A stretch of 64,000 nt of DNA, from assembly GCF_030169785.1 (NCBI RefSeq), contig NZ_CP125854.1, positions 1,302,001 through 1,366,000 of the forward strand, read 5' to 3'. Shown in pieces: positions 54,552 through 62,035 of this stretch. This DNA is from Bdellovibrio sp. 22V (GTDB lineage: Bacteria > Bdellovibrionota > Bdellovibrionia > Bdellovibrionales > Bdellovibrionaceae). Each line of letters begins with the position of its first letter. Position 1 is the first letter of the stretch. Under the pieces are notes generated by a model. The model ran no database searches. It was not told where the DNA came from and saw nothing but the letters and a program-made list of their open reading frames with translations. Both the position numbers and the translations under genes were made by a program.

Positions 54552-55628
54552 ATGACTCGAAGGGAATTCCGCAAAGATATCCGGGGTCGTGGAGCCAGTA
54601 GCAACGTCACCAATCGTTACGACTCTCTTAAATACGAAGCTACCGAAGAAGAATTCGACAATTATGCTGACGAGAAAACTCTTCTCAAAACGGAAGTTCT
54701 AAAAGACTCTTCGCGCACCATACTCTCGGAAAATAAAAGTCCTGACATCGGCTTTCGCTTTTCAGTGAACGCCTATCGCGGCTGTGAACACGGCTGCGCG
54801 TATTGCTATGCTCGACCGACTCACGAGTATTTGGGATATTCTCCGGGCCTGGATTTCGAGTCGAAAATTTTCGTCAAAGAAGAAGCCCCAAAACTTTTAC
54901 GCGAAGCCTTGATGAAAAAATCCTGGGAGCCGCAAGTGATCGCCATGAGTGGCGTGACGGATTGTTATCAACCGCTCGAAAGAAAAATGCAGCTGACCCG
55001 CGGATGTTTGGAAGTGCTGTTGGAATTTAAAAATCCGGTTTCTATGATTACCAAAAACGGATTGATCTTGCGCGATCTTGATATTTTCAAAGAGATGGCC
55101 AAGTACAACGGCATTCTTATTTTTATTTCCGTGACATCCCTTGACGCTGAACTGGCTCGCACTTTAGAGCCGCGCACGTCGCCGCCGCAAACGCGTTTGC
55201 ACGTCATTAAAACATTGGCCGACGCCGGAATTCCTGTTGGTGTGAACGTCGCGCCTTGCATTCCTGGTCTGACGGATCACGAAATGCCCATGATTCTTAA
55301 AGCTGCCAGTGAGGCTGGCGCGCAATACGCGGGATACGTGCCTTTGCGCTTGCCCTCTTCGGTGATGCCTATTTTCGAAGAGTGGTTGGAGGTTCACAGA
55401 CCTCTGAACAAGCAAAAAGTTTTGAACTCGGTGCGTGATATTCGGGGCGGCAAACTCAATGATCCTAACTTTGGCTCGAGAATGCGGGGCGAAGGTCCCC
55501 GAGCGGACCATATGGCGCAAATGTTCGCTCTTTATGCTCGCAAATATAATTTAAATATGAAAAAGTTCTCTCTCTCGGCGGAGCATTTCCAAAGACCGGG
55601 GGACCAACTGAAATTTGCCATAGACTGA
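54552..55628 (+). CDS. PA0069-family radical SAM protein, SplB-like
   Basis: The 358-residue protein has the radical SAM cluster cysteines at 78, 82 and 85 (CEHGCAYCYA) and the pattern of the PA0069/SplB-related family: GFRFSVNAYRGC, VTDCYQPLERKMQLTRGCLE, TKNGLILRDLDI, LRLPSSVMPIFEEWL. SplB itself reverts the spore photoproduct in DNA, while the PA0069 branch is uncharacterised. It begins a tight operon with a nuclease-helicase and a UvrC-like nuclease: only 1 base separates it from the helicase gene. A DNA-repair role is therefore a reasonable inference. Confidence 0.93.
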   Translation: MTRREFRKDIRGRGASSNVTNRYDSLKYEATEEEFDNYADEKTLLKTEVLKDSSRTILSENKSPDIGFRFSVNAYRGCEHGCAYCYARPTHEYLGYSPGLDFESKIFVKEEAPKLLREALMKKSWEPQVIAMSGVTDCYQPLERKMQLTRGCLEVLLEFKNPVSMITKNGLILRDLDIFKEMAKYNGILIFISVTSLDAELARTLEPRTSPPQTRLHVIKTLADAGIPVGVNVAPCIPGLTDHEMPMILKAASEAGAQYAGYVPLRLPSSVMPIFEEWLEVHRPLNKQKVLNSVRDIRGGKLNDPNFGSRMRGEGPRADHMAQMFALYARKYNLNMKKFSLSAEHFQRPGDQLKFAID

Positions 55629-55629
55629 C

Positions 55630-58002
55630 ATGCGGAAAATATATCTGAACGTAAAACAGTTTGCTCTTCCTGCGCCACGTATCGGCAGCATCGAAACTCA
55701 TTCGGGTTACGGGGCGACGCCGACAAGCGGGCAAGAGATTCATCAAATTGTTCAGCGTCGTCGTTCCCGCGAGATGACCGGTTATGAAGCTGAAAAGCGT
55801 ATGGACTTTGTCTTCAATGAAGGTCCCTATGAATTTGTCGTCAATGGCCGGGCTGACGGTTTTGTCGAAGAGCCTGCTTTCGTCGAGGAAATCAAATCCA
55901 CATTCGACATCGAAGAACTTTACTACAAACTGGCTGTCGAACCGAATCATCCCTATGTGTGGCAGCTGCGCACCTACGGATACTTTCACTATAAAAAAAC
56001 CGGTGTTGTTCCCCGGCTCAGTCTGCATCTTGTTTCCGTGCGCAACTTTAAATCCAAAGACCTCGAAATTCTTTTGGACGTAGACGGTTACGAAGAGTGG
56101 CTCAAGATTCGTTTGGCTGAACTCGTTGTCGAAACAAAAGCAAAGGAAAAGCTTTTCAAAAAACGCCAATCCATTGCGGAAGATATGACTTTTCCTTTTG
56201 CGTCTCCTCGTAAGAGCCAAAAAGAACTGGTCGACACCGTGACTGAAAATTTCATGCAGCAAAATCCGCTGATGATCCAAGCGCCGACAGGCCTGGGTAA
56301 AACCGCAGGCATTTTGTATCCTTCTTTGAAAGAGTCGCTGGCACGAGGACAAAAAGTTGTCTATGTAACGCCGAAAAACTCGCAACATCAGGTTGCCGAA
56401 GAAGCCGTTGAAAAAATTCAAGAGCAAGGCTGTAAAGTGCGGTCATTGACGATCACGGCGAAAAGTAAAATGTGCTTGAAGGCGGAGCCTTTGTGCAATC
56501 CCAAGTACTGCCAATACGCCAAAGATTATTACAAAAAAGTCGCTGAGCACGATCTGATTAACAAGCTCACAAAACTGCGCAGCCTGACCAATAAAAAACT
56601 GATCGCTCTTGGTGAAGAGTACGAAGTCTGTCCTTTTGAATTGTCCGTCGAGGCCATCGAAAGAGCCGACGTCGTGATTGGCGACTACAACTATGTTTTT
56701 GCCCCGCGCGGTCTTTTAGGCCGACTGTCTGAGCCGCTTTTAGAGCAAAGTGAAAAGGCCAATCTGGTGATTGATGAAGCTCACAATCTGCCTTCGCGCG
56801 CGCAGGATTATTTTTCTCCGTCATTGTCGGTGCAGCAACTTTTCAACATCGAACGGGATTTTTACAAATTGCCTGCGACATTTTCGATTCGCGCCCAGGC
56901 TTTGACAACGCAAGCAAAGCGTTTGATTCAGTCGTACGGCTTGGAAGGCCCTTCTCGCAAGGTAACTATTGATCTGGAGCCTTTCGTGGAGCTTGAAAAA
57001 GATTTCCGCGAAATGACGATGGAATATCTGGAAGCCGATGTCGAAATTCAAACTCAAGATCCGATCTTGCGTCTTTCCAATCTCTGGACGGAGTTTGTCA
57101 GCGCCTTGACCTTGTCCGGTGAAGAGTTCTTCCAGACTTATCAGCGCAACAATTATGCTGAAATGCTTAAGGTCACTTGTTGTGATGCCTCCGAACATTT
57201 AAAACTCGCTTATAAAGAATTTAAAAACGTTGTGGCGTTTTCCGCAACGCTGAAGCCGTTCGTGTATTATCAGGAACTATTGGGGTTCTCGAAAATAGAA
57301 ACCAAACAGCTGGAGTTTCCATCTCCGTTTGCAAAAGAGAATCGCAAGCTTCTTATCATCCCGCAGATTTCCACAAAGTTTTCCGATCGCACCATGAATG
57401 CAAAGAAGATTGCGGAAACTATTGAGCGTATCACTCAAGTGAAAAAGGGCAATTACATCGCTCTTTTCCCCAGCTTTGAATTTATGCGTATGGTGGAAAA
57501 TCATTTAAAACTTCCTGACTTTCAGATCCTGACGCAAGAACGGGAAATGAAACAAACGCAGACGCAACAGTATTTGGAAGAATTAAAAGCCGGACTGAAA
57601 GCCACCGTGCTACTAGGAGTTCAAGGCGGTGTTTTTTCAGAAGGAGTCGATTTTCCCGGTGACATGCTTATCGGCGCTTTCGTTGTTGGCCCGGCTCTGC
57701 CGAACTTTGATTTCGAACGCGAGCAGATTCGCGCCTATTACGAAAGCCGCTATGGCAAGGAACACGCTTTCAATTATGCCTACGTTTATCCCGCGATGGC
57801 TAAGGCGATTCAATCCGCGGGCCGCGTGATCCGCTCCGAAACAGACCGCGGCGTGATCGTGATGCTGGATTCGCGTTTCCTGCAAGCAAGCTATTCTGAA
57901 ACAATGCCGGAAGGATGGTTTGAAGAGTCTCCGCAAGAACTGGTGTCGCGCCAAATTCTGCAAGACGTGAAAAATTTTTGGGGGATGACACATGAGTCTT
58001 AA
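55630..58002 (+). CDS. DinG/XPD-like Fe-S helicase with N-terminal PD-(D/E)XK nuclease domain
   Basis: The 790-residue protein joins an N-terminal RecB/Cas4-like nuclease (Asp76 in GRADGF, then Glu87-Ile-Lys89) to a superfamily 2 helicase. Walker A is APTGLGKT (Lys224), the DEAH box VIDEAHN is at 382-385, and four cysteines at 282, 289, 294 and 334 lie between them as in the Fe-S domain of XPD and DinG. Late motifs include QGGVFSEGVDFPGD and QSAGRVIRSETDRG. It should unwind DNA 5' to 3' and cut it. It starts 1 base after the radical SAM gene and overlaps the next gene by 11 bases. Confidence 0.94.
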   Translation: MRKIYLNVKQFALPAPRIGSIETHSGYGATPTSGQEIHQIVQRRRSREMTGYEAEKRMDFVFNEGPYEFVVNGRADGFVEEPAFVEEIKSTFDIEELYYKLAVEPNHPYVWQLRTYGYFHYKKTGVVPRLSLHLVSVRNFKSKDLEILLDVDGYEEWLKIRLAELVVETKAKEKLFKKRQSIAEDMTFPFASPRKSQKELVDTVTENFMQQNPLMIQAPTGLGKTAGILYPSLKESLARGQKVVYVTPKNSQHQVAEEAVEKIQEQGCKVRSLTITAKSKMCLKAEPLCNPKYCQYAKDYYKKVAEHDLINKLTKLRSLTNKKLIALGEEYEVCPFELSVEAIERADVVIGDYNYVFAPRGLLGRLSEPLLEQSEKANLVIDEAHNLPSRAQDYFSPSLSVQQLFNIERDFYKLPATFSIRAQALTTQAKRLIQSYGLEGPSRKVTIDLEPFVELEKDFREMTMEYLEADVEIQTQDPILRLSNLWTEFVSALTLSGEEFFQTYQRNNYAEMLKVTCCDASEHLKLAYKEFKNVVAFSATLKPFVYYQELLGFSKIETKQLEFPSPFAKENRKLLIIPQISTKFSDRTMNAKKIAETIERITQVKKGNYIALFPSFEFMRMVENHLKLPDFQILTQEREMKQTQTQQYLEELKAGLKATVLLGVQGGVFSEGVDFPGDMLIGAFVVGPALPNFDFEREQIRAYYESRYGKEHAFNYAYVYPAMAKAIQSAGRVIRSETDRGVIVMLDSRFLQASYSETMPEGWFEESPQELVSRQILQDVKNFWGMTHES

Positions 58003-59602
58003 GAATCTCCCCGTTTTATTTTTGGATTTACAGACAACCGGAGCTAAACCCGATACGGCAAATATTTTGGAAATGGCGTGGGGTTCTAAAACCAAAAAGC
58101 TGAGCTATTTGGTACAACAACCTGAAGGCGAATCCATTCCGCGCCGTATTCAATACATTACCGGTATTTTTGAAGAAGACATGGACGAGGCACAACGTCT
58201 GTCTGACGTGCTGAAAGTTCTCAAAGACTTCATTGCCGAGCATGTGGGGCTCCATCCCGTTGCCGTGATTCACTTCGCACAATTTGAAAAGCCTTTCTTG
58301 TTGGATGCTTATGAAAAGATCCAAGAGGAAATGCCGTTTTCAATTCTCTGCACGCATGAAATCGCGAAACGACTTTTTCCTAATCTTCCCACTCGCGGCA
58401 TCAAAGGTTTGGCAGGATATTTTGGTTTTCCTTCAGGGGAACTTAAGCGCGGCGACAATCATGTCCAAGCCACAGAAGTGATTTGGAACGGTCTTGCGGA
58501 AGCCCTCGAGACCAAAGGCATTACTTCCCTTGAGACTTTGCAACAATGGCTGCAGGAAACCCCTAAGGCCGCGCGTGTAAAGTATGAATATCCGCTGCCG
58601 AAAGAAAAACGCCTGAGCCTGCCTAAGCAGCCGGGCATCTATCGTATGATCAGTCGCTGGGGCGAAGTTTTGTACGTCGGGAAAGCGACCTCTTTGCATG
58701 ATCGCGTGAATAGTTACTTCCGCGGGCAAAAGAATCGCGATACGCGCAAGCTTGAAATGCTGACTCAAGTGTGGGACTTGCATGTAACTCCGGTCAGCAG
58801 TCCCCTCGAAGCCGCCCTTCTGGAAACGGACGAGATCAAACGGCTTGATCCGCCTTACAATGTCAGCTTGAAGGTCGGCGCCCGTAGCATGGCCTTCTTC
58901 AATCGCGATTTCACCTCTGTCAGTCACGAGCACGACGAAGAGCATTGCATCGGACCTTTTTCCAATTCGATGGTTTTAGATTCGATGCTGAAACTCAATC
59001 ATTCTCTCACTTGTGAAGAGTTTGACGAAAATATGTTCTATGAACCTATCGACGCCGAACTTTTAAAAGACGGATTTGAATTATTCTGCCAGCGTCATGA
59101 AGTCGATAAACTTTCTTTCACGTCCATGCGCTCTATTCTCGCCTTGGGTCTTTCCTGGGTCCGCGGGCTCAACGAAGAAGATGACGTGGAAGAAGATATA
59201 GAAACTGAAGAAAGTGAAGTGACGGCCACAGAAGCGTCGAGTCCTTCCGAAGGCGATGAGGATGTCGAGAGTGAAGAAGAACTCGAAGTCGAACTGACGG
59301 CGGAAGATATTGCCGACAAGTTCGAGCGTCACTTTATTCGTGCGGCTCGCGCGTATTTGCGAACAAAAAAGCTCACACGTCTGTTGAATGTCGATATTCA
59401 GTTTGAACTTAAATCCCCGGTGATCCTTAAAATCCGCCAAGGAAATATTGTTCACGAAGACAGTCCTATAACGGCTAAATCTTGGAAAAATCTGTCGATA
59501 GAAACTTACGATCGCATGACCGTCCTTTACACGGAGCTGGAAAAACTTCGTGCCCAAGACTGCAATTTAAAAATTCACAAAATCTATTTGAACTTGGAAT
59601 AG
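57992..59602 (+). CDS. DnaQ-like domain fused to GIY-YIG (UvrC/Cho-like) nuclease
   Basis: The 536-residue protein has an N-terminal DEDDh exonuclease fold (about 5-175) and a GIY-YIG nuclease (about 210-295) with GIY at 215-217, YVG at 228-230, Arg238 and the catalytic Glu278 in ALLETDEIKRLDPPYN. A C-terminal region with a very acidic stretch (about 390-440) has no recognised domain. In the exonuclease part Asp12 and His157 are kept, but the other acids are changed (Gln14, Glu99, Glu162), so activity may be lost. GIY-YIG of this type cuts damaged DNA like UvrC or Cho. It overlaps the helicase gene by 11 bases. Confidence 0.93.
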   Translation: MSLKNLPVLFLDLQTTGAKPDTANILEMAWGSKTKKLSYLVQQPEGESIPRRIQYITGIFEEDMDEAQRLSDVLKVLKDFIAEHVGLHPVAVIHFAQFEKPFLLDAYEKIQEEMPFSILCTHEIAKRLFPNLPTRGIKGLAGYFGFPSGELKRGDNHVQATEVIWNGLAEALETKGITSLETLQQWLQETPKAARVKYEYPLPKEKRLSLPKQPGIYRMISRWGEVLYVGKATSLHDRVNSYFRGQKNRDTRKLEMLTQVWDLHVTPVSSPLEAALLETDEIKRLDPPYNVSLKVGARSMAFFNRDFTSVSHEHDEEHCIGPFSNSMVLDSMLKLNHSLTCEEFDENMFYEPIDAELLKDGFELFCQRHEVDKLSFTSMRSILALGLSWVRGLNEEDDVEEDIETEESEVTATEASSPSEGDEDVESEEELEVELTAEDIADKFERHFIRAARAYLRTKKLTRLLNVDIQFELKSPVILKIRQGNIVHEDSPITAKSWKNLSIETYDRMTVLYTELEKLRAQDCNLKIHKIYLNLE

Positions 59603-61147: not shown

Positions 61148-62035
61148 ATGTTCAAAGCAAAGGGATCTTTTAAACCAAAATTCCAGCCTAAAAGCGCGGA
61201 GAAACCTCAAGGCATGGGCCGAGGACTGGTTTACAAGCAAAACTATATTTCTCCTCGAGAAAAACAGGAAATTCTGAATTACCTGAGCACCCTTTATCCC
61301 ATTTGGGAGATGCGCTACTCAAAGAACAATCCGCCTCCGGCCAATCAAAAGCAACGTCCTCTTTTGCGTCCCGTTTACTGGTTGGGCAACTGGCAGTTTG
61401 CGTGCCTTAACTACTATCATCCGCCTAAAGGAATTTATAACCGCTGCGTTCAGGCCGAGCCTTACCCGCCGATCCTGGAATTCATCGTGCAAAAAATTGA
61501 AACACTGGTGCACGAGTCTTTCGAGCCTCGCGACATTCCGCGTGGCTGGCATTTGAACACCTGCCTTATCAATTATTACGGCAATCAGATTCAAGAGGAC
61601 GGCAAAGCTTTGGACTGCGCCCGCGTGGGCGAGCATAAAGATTTTGAACCAGGCCCTGTGGCCTCCGTCTCTTTTGGTGAGCGCGCTCTTTTTCAATTCG
61701 TTTCGAGCCAAGGCACGGAATCTAAATCCAACGTCGTCTTACAACAGTGGCTGGAAGACAGCTCCTTGCAGATTTTTGGCGGAGACAAATTTAAAAAACA
61801 TCTTTTCCACCGCGTGCAGCGTGTGGAGAAAAAAGAAGATGTTGTCTTTCCTCTGAACGAAATCACCAACTTTGAAACTCGCCGAATCAATTTCACGTTT
61901 CGTTACGTGCCGGATGAACACATCGTCCCCTTTCAACGGCTCTCGGAAACAGCAAAAGAAGACGTGCAGGGTTACATGCAGCAACTCGCGCAGCACTCCG
62001 ATTTTTTTAAAGAGCAACTGTCCGCCCCCGTCTAA
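61148..62035 (+). CDS. AlkB-family 2-oxoglutarate/Fe(II) dioxygenase
   Basis: The 295-residue protein has the iron ligands His163 and Asp165 (GEHKDFE) with a distal His221 (HLFHRV), and the 2-oxoglutarate Arg at 246 or 252 (RRINFTFR). NTCLINYYGN and VASVSFGERALFQF follow the AlkB pattern. AlkB enzymes remove alkyl groups from DNA or RNA bases; a protein or other substrate is also possible for diverged members. The N-terminal 25 residues are basic. No ribosome site is clear, and the start follows structured leader sequence. Confidence 0.88.
   Translation: MFKAKGSFKPKFQPKSAEKPQGMGRGLVYKQNYISPREKQEILNYLSTLYPIWEMRYSKNNPPPANQKQRPLLRPVYWLGNWQFACLNYYHPPKGIYNRCVQAEPYPPILEFIVQKIETLVHESFEPRDIPRGWHLNTCLINYYGNQIQEDGKALDCARVGEHKDFEPGPVASVSFGERALFQFVSSQGTESKSNVVLQQWLEDSSLQIFGGDKFKKHLFHRVQRVEKKEDVVFPLNEITNFETRRINFTFRYVPDEHIVPFQRLSETAKEDVQGYMQQLAQHSDFFKEQLSAPV

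Follow-up and report, generated by a model that had tools for sequence, protein, structure and literature searches.

The window, namely the whole stretch of 64,000 nucleotides of Bdellovibrio sp. 22V DNA analysed here, contains an operon of three genes on the + strand, designated rSAM, hel and giy. The first (54552..55628) codes for a 358-residue radical SAM protein of the PA0069 family (NCBIfam NF033668), with a CxxxCxxC motif at residues 79-86, the second (55630..58002) for a 790-residue EndoDinG-type helicase-nuclease, and the third (57992..59602) for a 536-residue GIY-YIG endonuclease with a degenerate DEDDh domain, as indicated by domain matches and a predicted model. A single base separates rSAM from hel, and hel and giy overlap by 11 bases (57992..58002, +), so that the coordinates of the layout described in an earlier note on this DNA are confirmed. 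The domains named there were also recovered (Radical_SAM, XPD/DinG with PD-(D/E)XK, and a DEDDh-like domain with GIY-YIG), except that the first protein is related to SplB only at the level of the broad family and that the catalytic residues of the DnaQ-like domain are lost. The genes flanking the operon, in a host genome of 3.6 Mb, are mostly metabolic.

The hel product carries the Pfam domains DEAD_2, HBB and Helicase_C_2, and matches the DinG structure of Finegoldia magna (9kqh) nearly from end to end, its predicted model (pLDDT 80) aligning over 780 columns. The N-terminal PD-(D/E)XK nuclease domain covers about residues 1-150 (55630..56079, +), and H38, E55, D76, E87, K89, Q112 and Y116 are invariant in 21 out of 21 aligned sequences. 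The same alignment shows conservation, again in 21/21, of the Fe-S cysteines (C282, C289, C294 and C334; 56473..56631, +), Walker A and motif VI, and the DEAH-box residues are kept as well. Judged by these motifs, hel is a member of the EndoDinG class, which associates a PD-(D/E)XK nuclease with a CCCC Fe-S XPD/DinG motor. The representative named for this class, a B. bacteriovorus HD100 protein, agrees with hel in architecture and in motifs; its nuclease is of the RecE/Cas4/Dna2 type, and the protein is reported as an endonuclease, with reference to unpublished data (PMC11981726).

With regard to giy, the GIY-YIG nuclease domain (58601..58879, +) is closest to that of UvrC (1.7e-16 against structure 1yd6). 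Residues Y217, Y228, R238, E278 and N290 are invariant in the 42 proteins compared, as in GIY-YIG nucleases, and K231 is also intact in the window protein. In the predicted model (pLDDT 85), the DnaQ-like domain (57992..58561, +) has the fold of E. coli epsilon (1j53; Z 18.7, 1.8 A over 156 residues, in a comparison covering mainly residues 1-187). The fold matches also include the EXO-like domain of Exuperantia (5l80, Z 17.6), which we take to be another non-catalytic member of the DnaQ fold. Where DEDDh enzymes possess D, E, D, H and D, this domain has D12, Q14, E99, K152 and H157. The corresponding positions are D, Q, E, K and H/Q/N in 39 giy proteins, two of which are fragments without the first two catalytic positions, and the set is likewise lost in the three Legionella proteins, with N replacing K. 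Thus, none of these 42 proteins retains the catalytic set of a DEDDh exonuclease; five stand-alone proteins of the DnaQ-GIY type, encoded in the same phylum, keep the full set. On these residues, the DnaQ-like domain looks catalytically dead, at variance with the view of the earlier note that each domain represents an active repair enzyme. The remaining C-terminal part (58889..59599, +) is predicted to be helical, with a low-confidence acidic linker at residues 396-432. Only GIY-YIG and RNase_T exceed the Pfam cut-off in giy, where neither the RNase H nor the UVR motif of UvrC was found. Although the protein has the GIY-YIG active site in common with UvrC and Cho, it scores under the cut-offs of these families, with 82 bits against the UvrC model (cut-off 285). 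The DEDD exonuclease plus GIY-YIG proteins of the PRK07883 group have the same domain order as giy, which differs from them by its replaced DEDDh residues and by a score of 146 bits for a cut-off of 495.

The survey of 114 Bdellovibrionota genomes revealed hel in 23 and giy in 13 of them. All 13 giy-containing genomes also possess hel, next to giy in 12 cases; the two genes are unlinked in G091, and in G051 their order is reversed. Among the Obscuribacterales (Cyanobacteriota), giy is present in 23 of 53 genomes, and hel adjoins it in all 23. Since no full-length giy relative was found in 193 sampled genomes of other Cyanobacteriota, the pair is seen in this cyanobacterial order only. Further, hel and giy overlap by eight bases on three Legionella plasmids (L236, L237 and L238), two of which were typed as conjugative. 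Overall, hel adjoins giy in 41 of 44 giy-containing genomes from three phyla and is unlinked in three; five of these 44 genomes were reached via hel, which biases the sample to that extent, and formal p-values are only indicative because the genomes are related. The overlap ranges from 4 to 11 bases in the ten Bdellovibrionota copies measured, window included, and, recurring in 10/10, it is not a product of chance. The conserved unit is the hel-giy pair, which replaces the trio of the earlier note. The neighbourhood comparison suggested there, across Bdellovibrionota and other phyla, shows hel and giy kept together and rSAM usually unlinked; the proposed linkage of a helicase-nuclease with a GIY-YIG protein is borne out by an overlapping pair that spans phyla and lies in DNA-damage contexts.

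Related helicases take another nuclease in the place of giy, either the beta-lactamase-fold exonuclease TIGR04122 (MBL Exo), annotated as a ligase-associated DNA damage response exonuclease, or bacterial FAN1, whose folds are unrelated to that of giy; neither of the two is encoded in the window. The ten Bdellovibrionota genomes with hel and without giy all harbour the TIGR04122 exonuclease (one copy is fragmented), directly upstream of hel in seven cases, and only 3 of the 91 genomes lacking hel have it over the cut-off. GTDB genomes provided six Exo-hel loci, five with an overlap of one to four bases, the Exo-hel locus L056 being identical to the G089 locus of the Bdellovibrionota sample. In the helicase tree, the giy form and the Exo form each need one change only. 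On four Burkholderia megaplasmids, FAN1 (615 bits against the Pseudomonas FAN1 structure) directly precedes a more distant hel relative, 27-29% identical. The Burkholderia arboris copy (L242, 3235-7226) has a 4-base overlap between FAN1 and the EndoDinG-like helicase, in the same order as the three other megaplasmids. Matches to the Burkholderia-type helicase in the phage collection fall in records that lack annotation and in several cases are short, so that they could derive from host DNA. The window genome carries a separate TIGR04122 exonuclease (G000:C1:2819954-2820925), outside the window and unlinked to hel. Numerous hel homologues are found on their own. No recognised partner nuclease lies alongside the Firmicute relatives checked (Listeria and Enterococcus), and the genes upstream of the Acidobacteria and Lokiarchaeia hel loci belong to no convincing repair family. 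Two Lokiarchaeia EndoDinG-like genes have in common an upstream gene (L085, 4739-5704; L090, 56-991) for a protein of 311-321 residues, without an NCBIfam match or, for the one copy tested, a Pfam match.

The neighbourhoods of several copies relate to DNA damage. On all three Legionella plasmids the pair faces umuD and genes for Y-family polymerases in convergent orientation, and on two of them dinB as well; an SOS-associated peptidase is found near two, and UdgX and Ku flank one, so that these loci have the character of plasmid-borne DNA-damage islands. In a Desulfuromonadaceae genome (L059), the gene order is lexA-dinB-hel. The TTACN3GTAA motif, presumably the LexA box of Bdellovibrio, was not found upstream of the window operon or of most relatives, and SOS control of the window operon was rejected on this basis. 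An exact palindrome of this type is present at L043, 14 bases upstream of 7403 and before an Exo-hel operon, which could be chance. The window genome encodes UvrB and UvrC once each and UvrA twice; both full-length uvrA genes lie outside the window (G000:C1:1606484-1609012 and 445249-448122). Given this equipment, the earlier suggestion of a pathway that dispenses with UvrA/UvrB does not follow, as such independence is not readable from the sequence. The pair may be redundant, or use UvrB as Cho does.

Taken together, hel and giy probably repair damaged DNA. With moderate confidence, we propose that they constitute a two-protein DNA-damage module, in which the helicase works with an interchangeable nuclease beside the host UvrABC system, rSAM being a passenger. 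The pairing, the active-site residues kept or lost, the DNA-damage neighbourhoods and the change of partner are seen in the data, and we infer the docking of the proteins, the sequence and sides of their cuts and the type of lesion. The hel protein would travel on single-stranded DNA and unwind the duplex where it is damaged or blocked, and the PD-(D/E)XK nuclease of hel would incise one strand. By means of its dead DnaQ-like domain, giy would probably dock on hel, or grip a DNA end, its GIY-YIG nuclease being thereby positioned for a second nick; alternatively, the partner may trim past the lesion. The GIY-YIG domain of UvrC makes the 3' incision, and giy may therefore do the same. The two cuts would free or unhook a bulky adduct or a cross-link, in parallel to UvrABC, and other lineages would retain the helicase with MBL Exo or FAN1 as the second nuclease. 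In eukaryotes, cross-links are targets of FAN1 and of SNM1-type nucleases, and damage that is bulky or cross-linked is therefore favoured as the substrate of the module; this is the best reading, the cross-link specificity being drawn by analogy with FAN1, SNM1 and FANCJ. The DnaQ-like domain may represent a docking or end-binding adaptor, since this fold is part of the helicase polypeptide in ExoDinG and is predicted to be dead in pExoDinG (PMC11981726). Counted against the module are the three giy-containing genomes in which the genes are unlinked, the many lone hel homologues, the lack of a LexA-like box and the complete UvrABC set.

A bolder possibility, which we regard as rather doubtful, is that EndoDinG helicases form the core of an unrecognised cross-link repair machine resembling a primitive Fanconi toolkit, in which an XPD/FANCJ-like helicase-nuclease would act without UvrABC and receive a lineage-specific plug-in nuclease (a GIY-YIG protein with a dead-exonuclease adaptor, an SNM1-like MBL Exo or FAN1). 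If true, bacteria would possess a repair machine pairing one helicase-nuclease with lineage-dependent second nucleases, some of them homologous to enzymes that repair cross-links in eukaryotes, and would offer a simple experimental system for helicase-nuclease coupling at cross-links. It would also assign a function to the newly named EndoDinG class, show clearly how the fold of a proofreading exonuclease has been put to new use as an adaptor without catalysis, and account for the presence of a repair pair on plasmids beside translesion polymerases.

Other explanations have to be weighed against the two-protein module. We consider it unlikely that giy is an alternative 3' incision nuclease for UvrA and UvrB, comparable to Cho, with hel as a separate, co-expressed replication-stress helicase. 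Cho consists only of the N-terminal part of UvrC, and a likeness to it would suit a GIY-YIG domain closest to UvrC in a genome where UvrA and UvrB are present. However, every giy-containing genome of the Bdellovibrionota sample also has hel, whereas UvrC-type matches are near universal there, and the protein, devoid of a detectable UVR motif, scores only 33.6 bits against the excinuclease Cho model (cut-off 367). Quite unlikely, too, is a role of the pair in recombination, where it would process stalled forks or the ends of DNA in an AddAB or Dna2-like manner, instead of excising lesions. FAN1 and the GIY-YIG nuclease SLX1 act on flaps and forks, which is compatible with such a role. The RecE/Cas4/Dna2 type of the PD-(D/E)XK nuclease (PMC11981726) and the Ku gene adjoining one plasmid copy point in the same direction, but the flanking translesion polymerases favour lesion handling, and no recombination partner was seen beside the pair.

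The helicase-nuclease architecture of hel, its patchy and partly plasmid-borne distribution, and the existence of DinG-like proteins in type IV CRISPR systems (hel scores 405 bits against the PADLOC typeIV_DinG model) would also fit an anti-phage or anti-plasmid system, in which giy would serve as effector to a helicase-nuclease that breaks down incoming DNA. We judge this quite unlikely: PADLOC applied to ten neighbours gave one weak match (LmuA model, 27.7 bits, L054), Y-family polymerases flank the plasmid copies, and the phage collection contains no full-length giy relative. Furthermore, hel differs from CasDinG of type IV CRISPR systems by a score of 32.7 bits against the Csf4 model (cut-off 400), and no cas genes were observed in the annotated Legionella neighbourhoods or recognised beside the window pair. 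A defence island was rejected in view of the single weak PADLOC match, as was a viral origin, viral contigs containing no giy relatives and only distant helicases resembling hel.

The radical SAM gene stands apart from the conserved pair as a clade-specific passenger or local neighbour. Its product scores 477 bits against the PA0069 model NF033668 (cut-off 360), and 15.7 and 17.9 bits against the spore photoproduct lyase models TIGR04070 (cut-off 400) and TIGR03886 (cut-off 438); no solved spore photoproduct lyase structure matched it, even at E 1. By these scores it is not a spore photoproduct lyase, and the photoproduct chemistry evoked in the earlier note finds no support. The gene is present in 16 of the 114 Bdellovibrionota genomes and adjoins hel in 5 of the 23 that contain the latter (the window genome, G098, G052, G075 and G090), all closely related. 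In the other five hel-containing Bdellovibrio genomes, rSAM is located elsewhere (G060 and G040) or missing (G056, G064 and G104), and six genomes of the Bdellovibrionota sample possess it without hel. It was found within 6 kb of hel at none of 43 wider hel loci, and beside none of the pairs at the three Legionella plasmid loci. Its status as a third, core member of the system was rejected on these neighbourhood and co-occurrence data. That all three act in a single pathway of lesion reversal and excision, in which the radical SAM protein reverses photoproducts, is highly improbable in view of these scores and of this distribution, even if the rSAM-hel gap of one or two bases in five related Bdellovibrio species indicates that the trio is probably co-transcribed there.

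Among characterised systems, the nearest working precedent for the hel-giy pair is MrfA-MrfB (YprA-YprB) of Bacillus subtilis, a helicase with a DnaQ-fold protein, whose repair of mitomycin C damage does not depend on UvrABC (PMC11194089). The two systems are nevertheless distinct: MrfB has a catalytic DEDDh site and no GIY-YIG domain, whereas giy has lost the former and possesses the latter, and MrfA is a YprA-family helicase, whereas hel is of the XPD/DinG type and carries its own nuclease. A DnaQ-fold domain also works with a DinG helicase in pExoDinG and ExoDinG (PMC11981726), to which it is fused, whereas here it resides on a separate GIY-YIG protein. The helicase class was already known; PMC11981726 names no partner gene in its EndoDinG section and mentions GIY-YIG nowhere, and the nuclease partners come from the present analysis. 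In the open-licence literature searched, no description was found of the hel-giy pairing, of the signature of a dead exonuclease or of the exchange of partners.

In other respects, an AlkB-like 2OG-Fe(II) oxygenase (Pfam 2OG-FeII_Oxy_2, 117 bits) is encoded 1.5 kb downstream of hel-giy, at positions 61148-62035 (+) of the window, and is likely an alkylation-repair gene. A gene of similar size is present at the matching position of loci L048 and L049.
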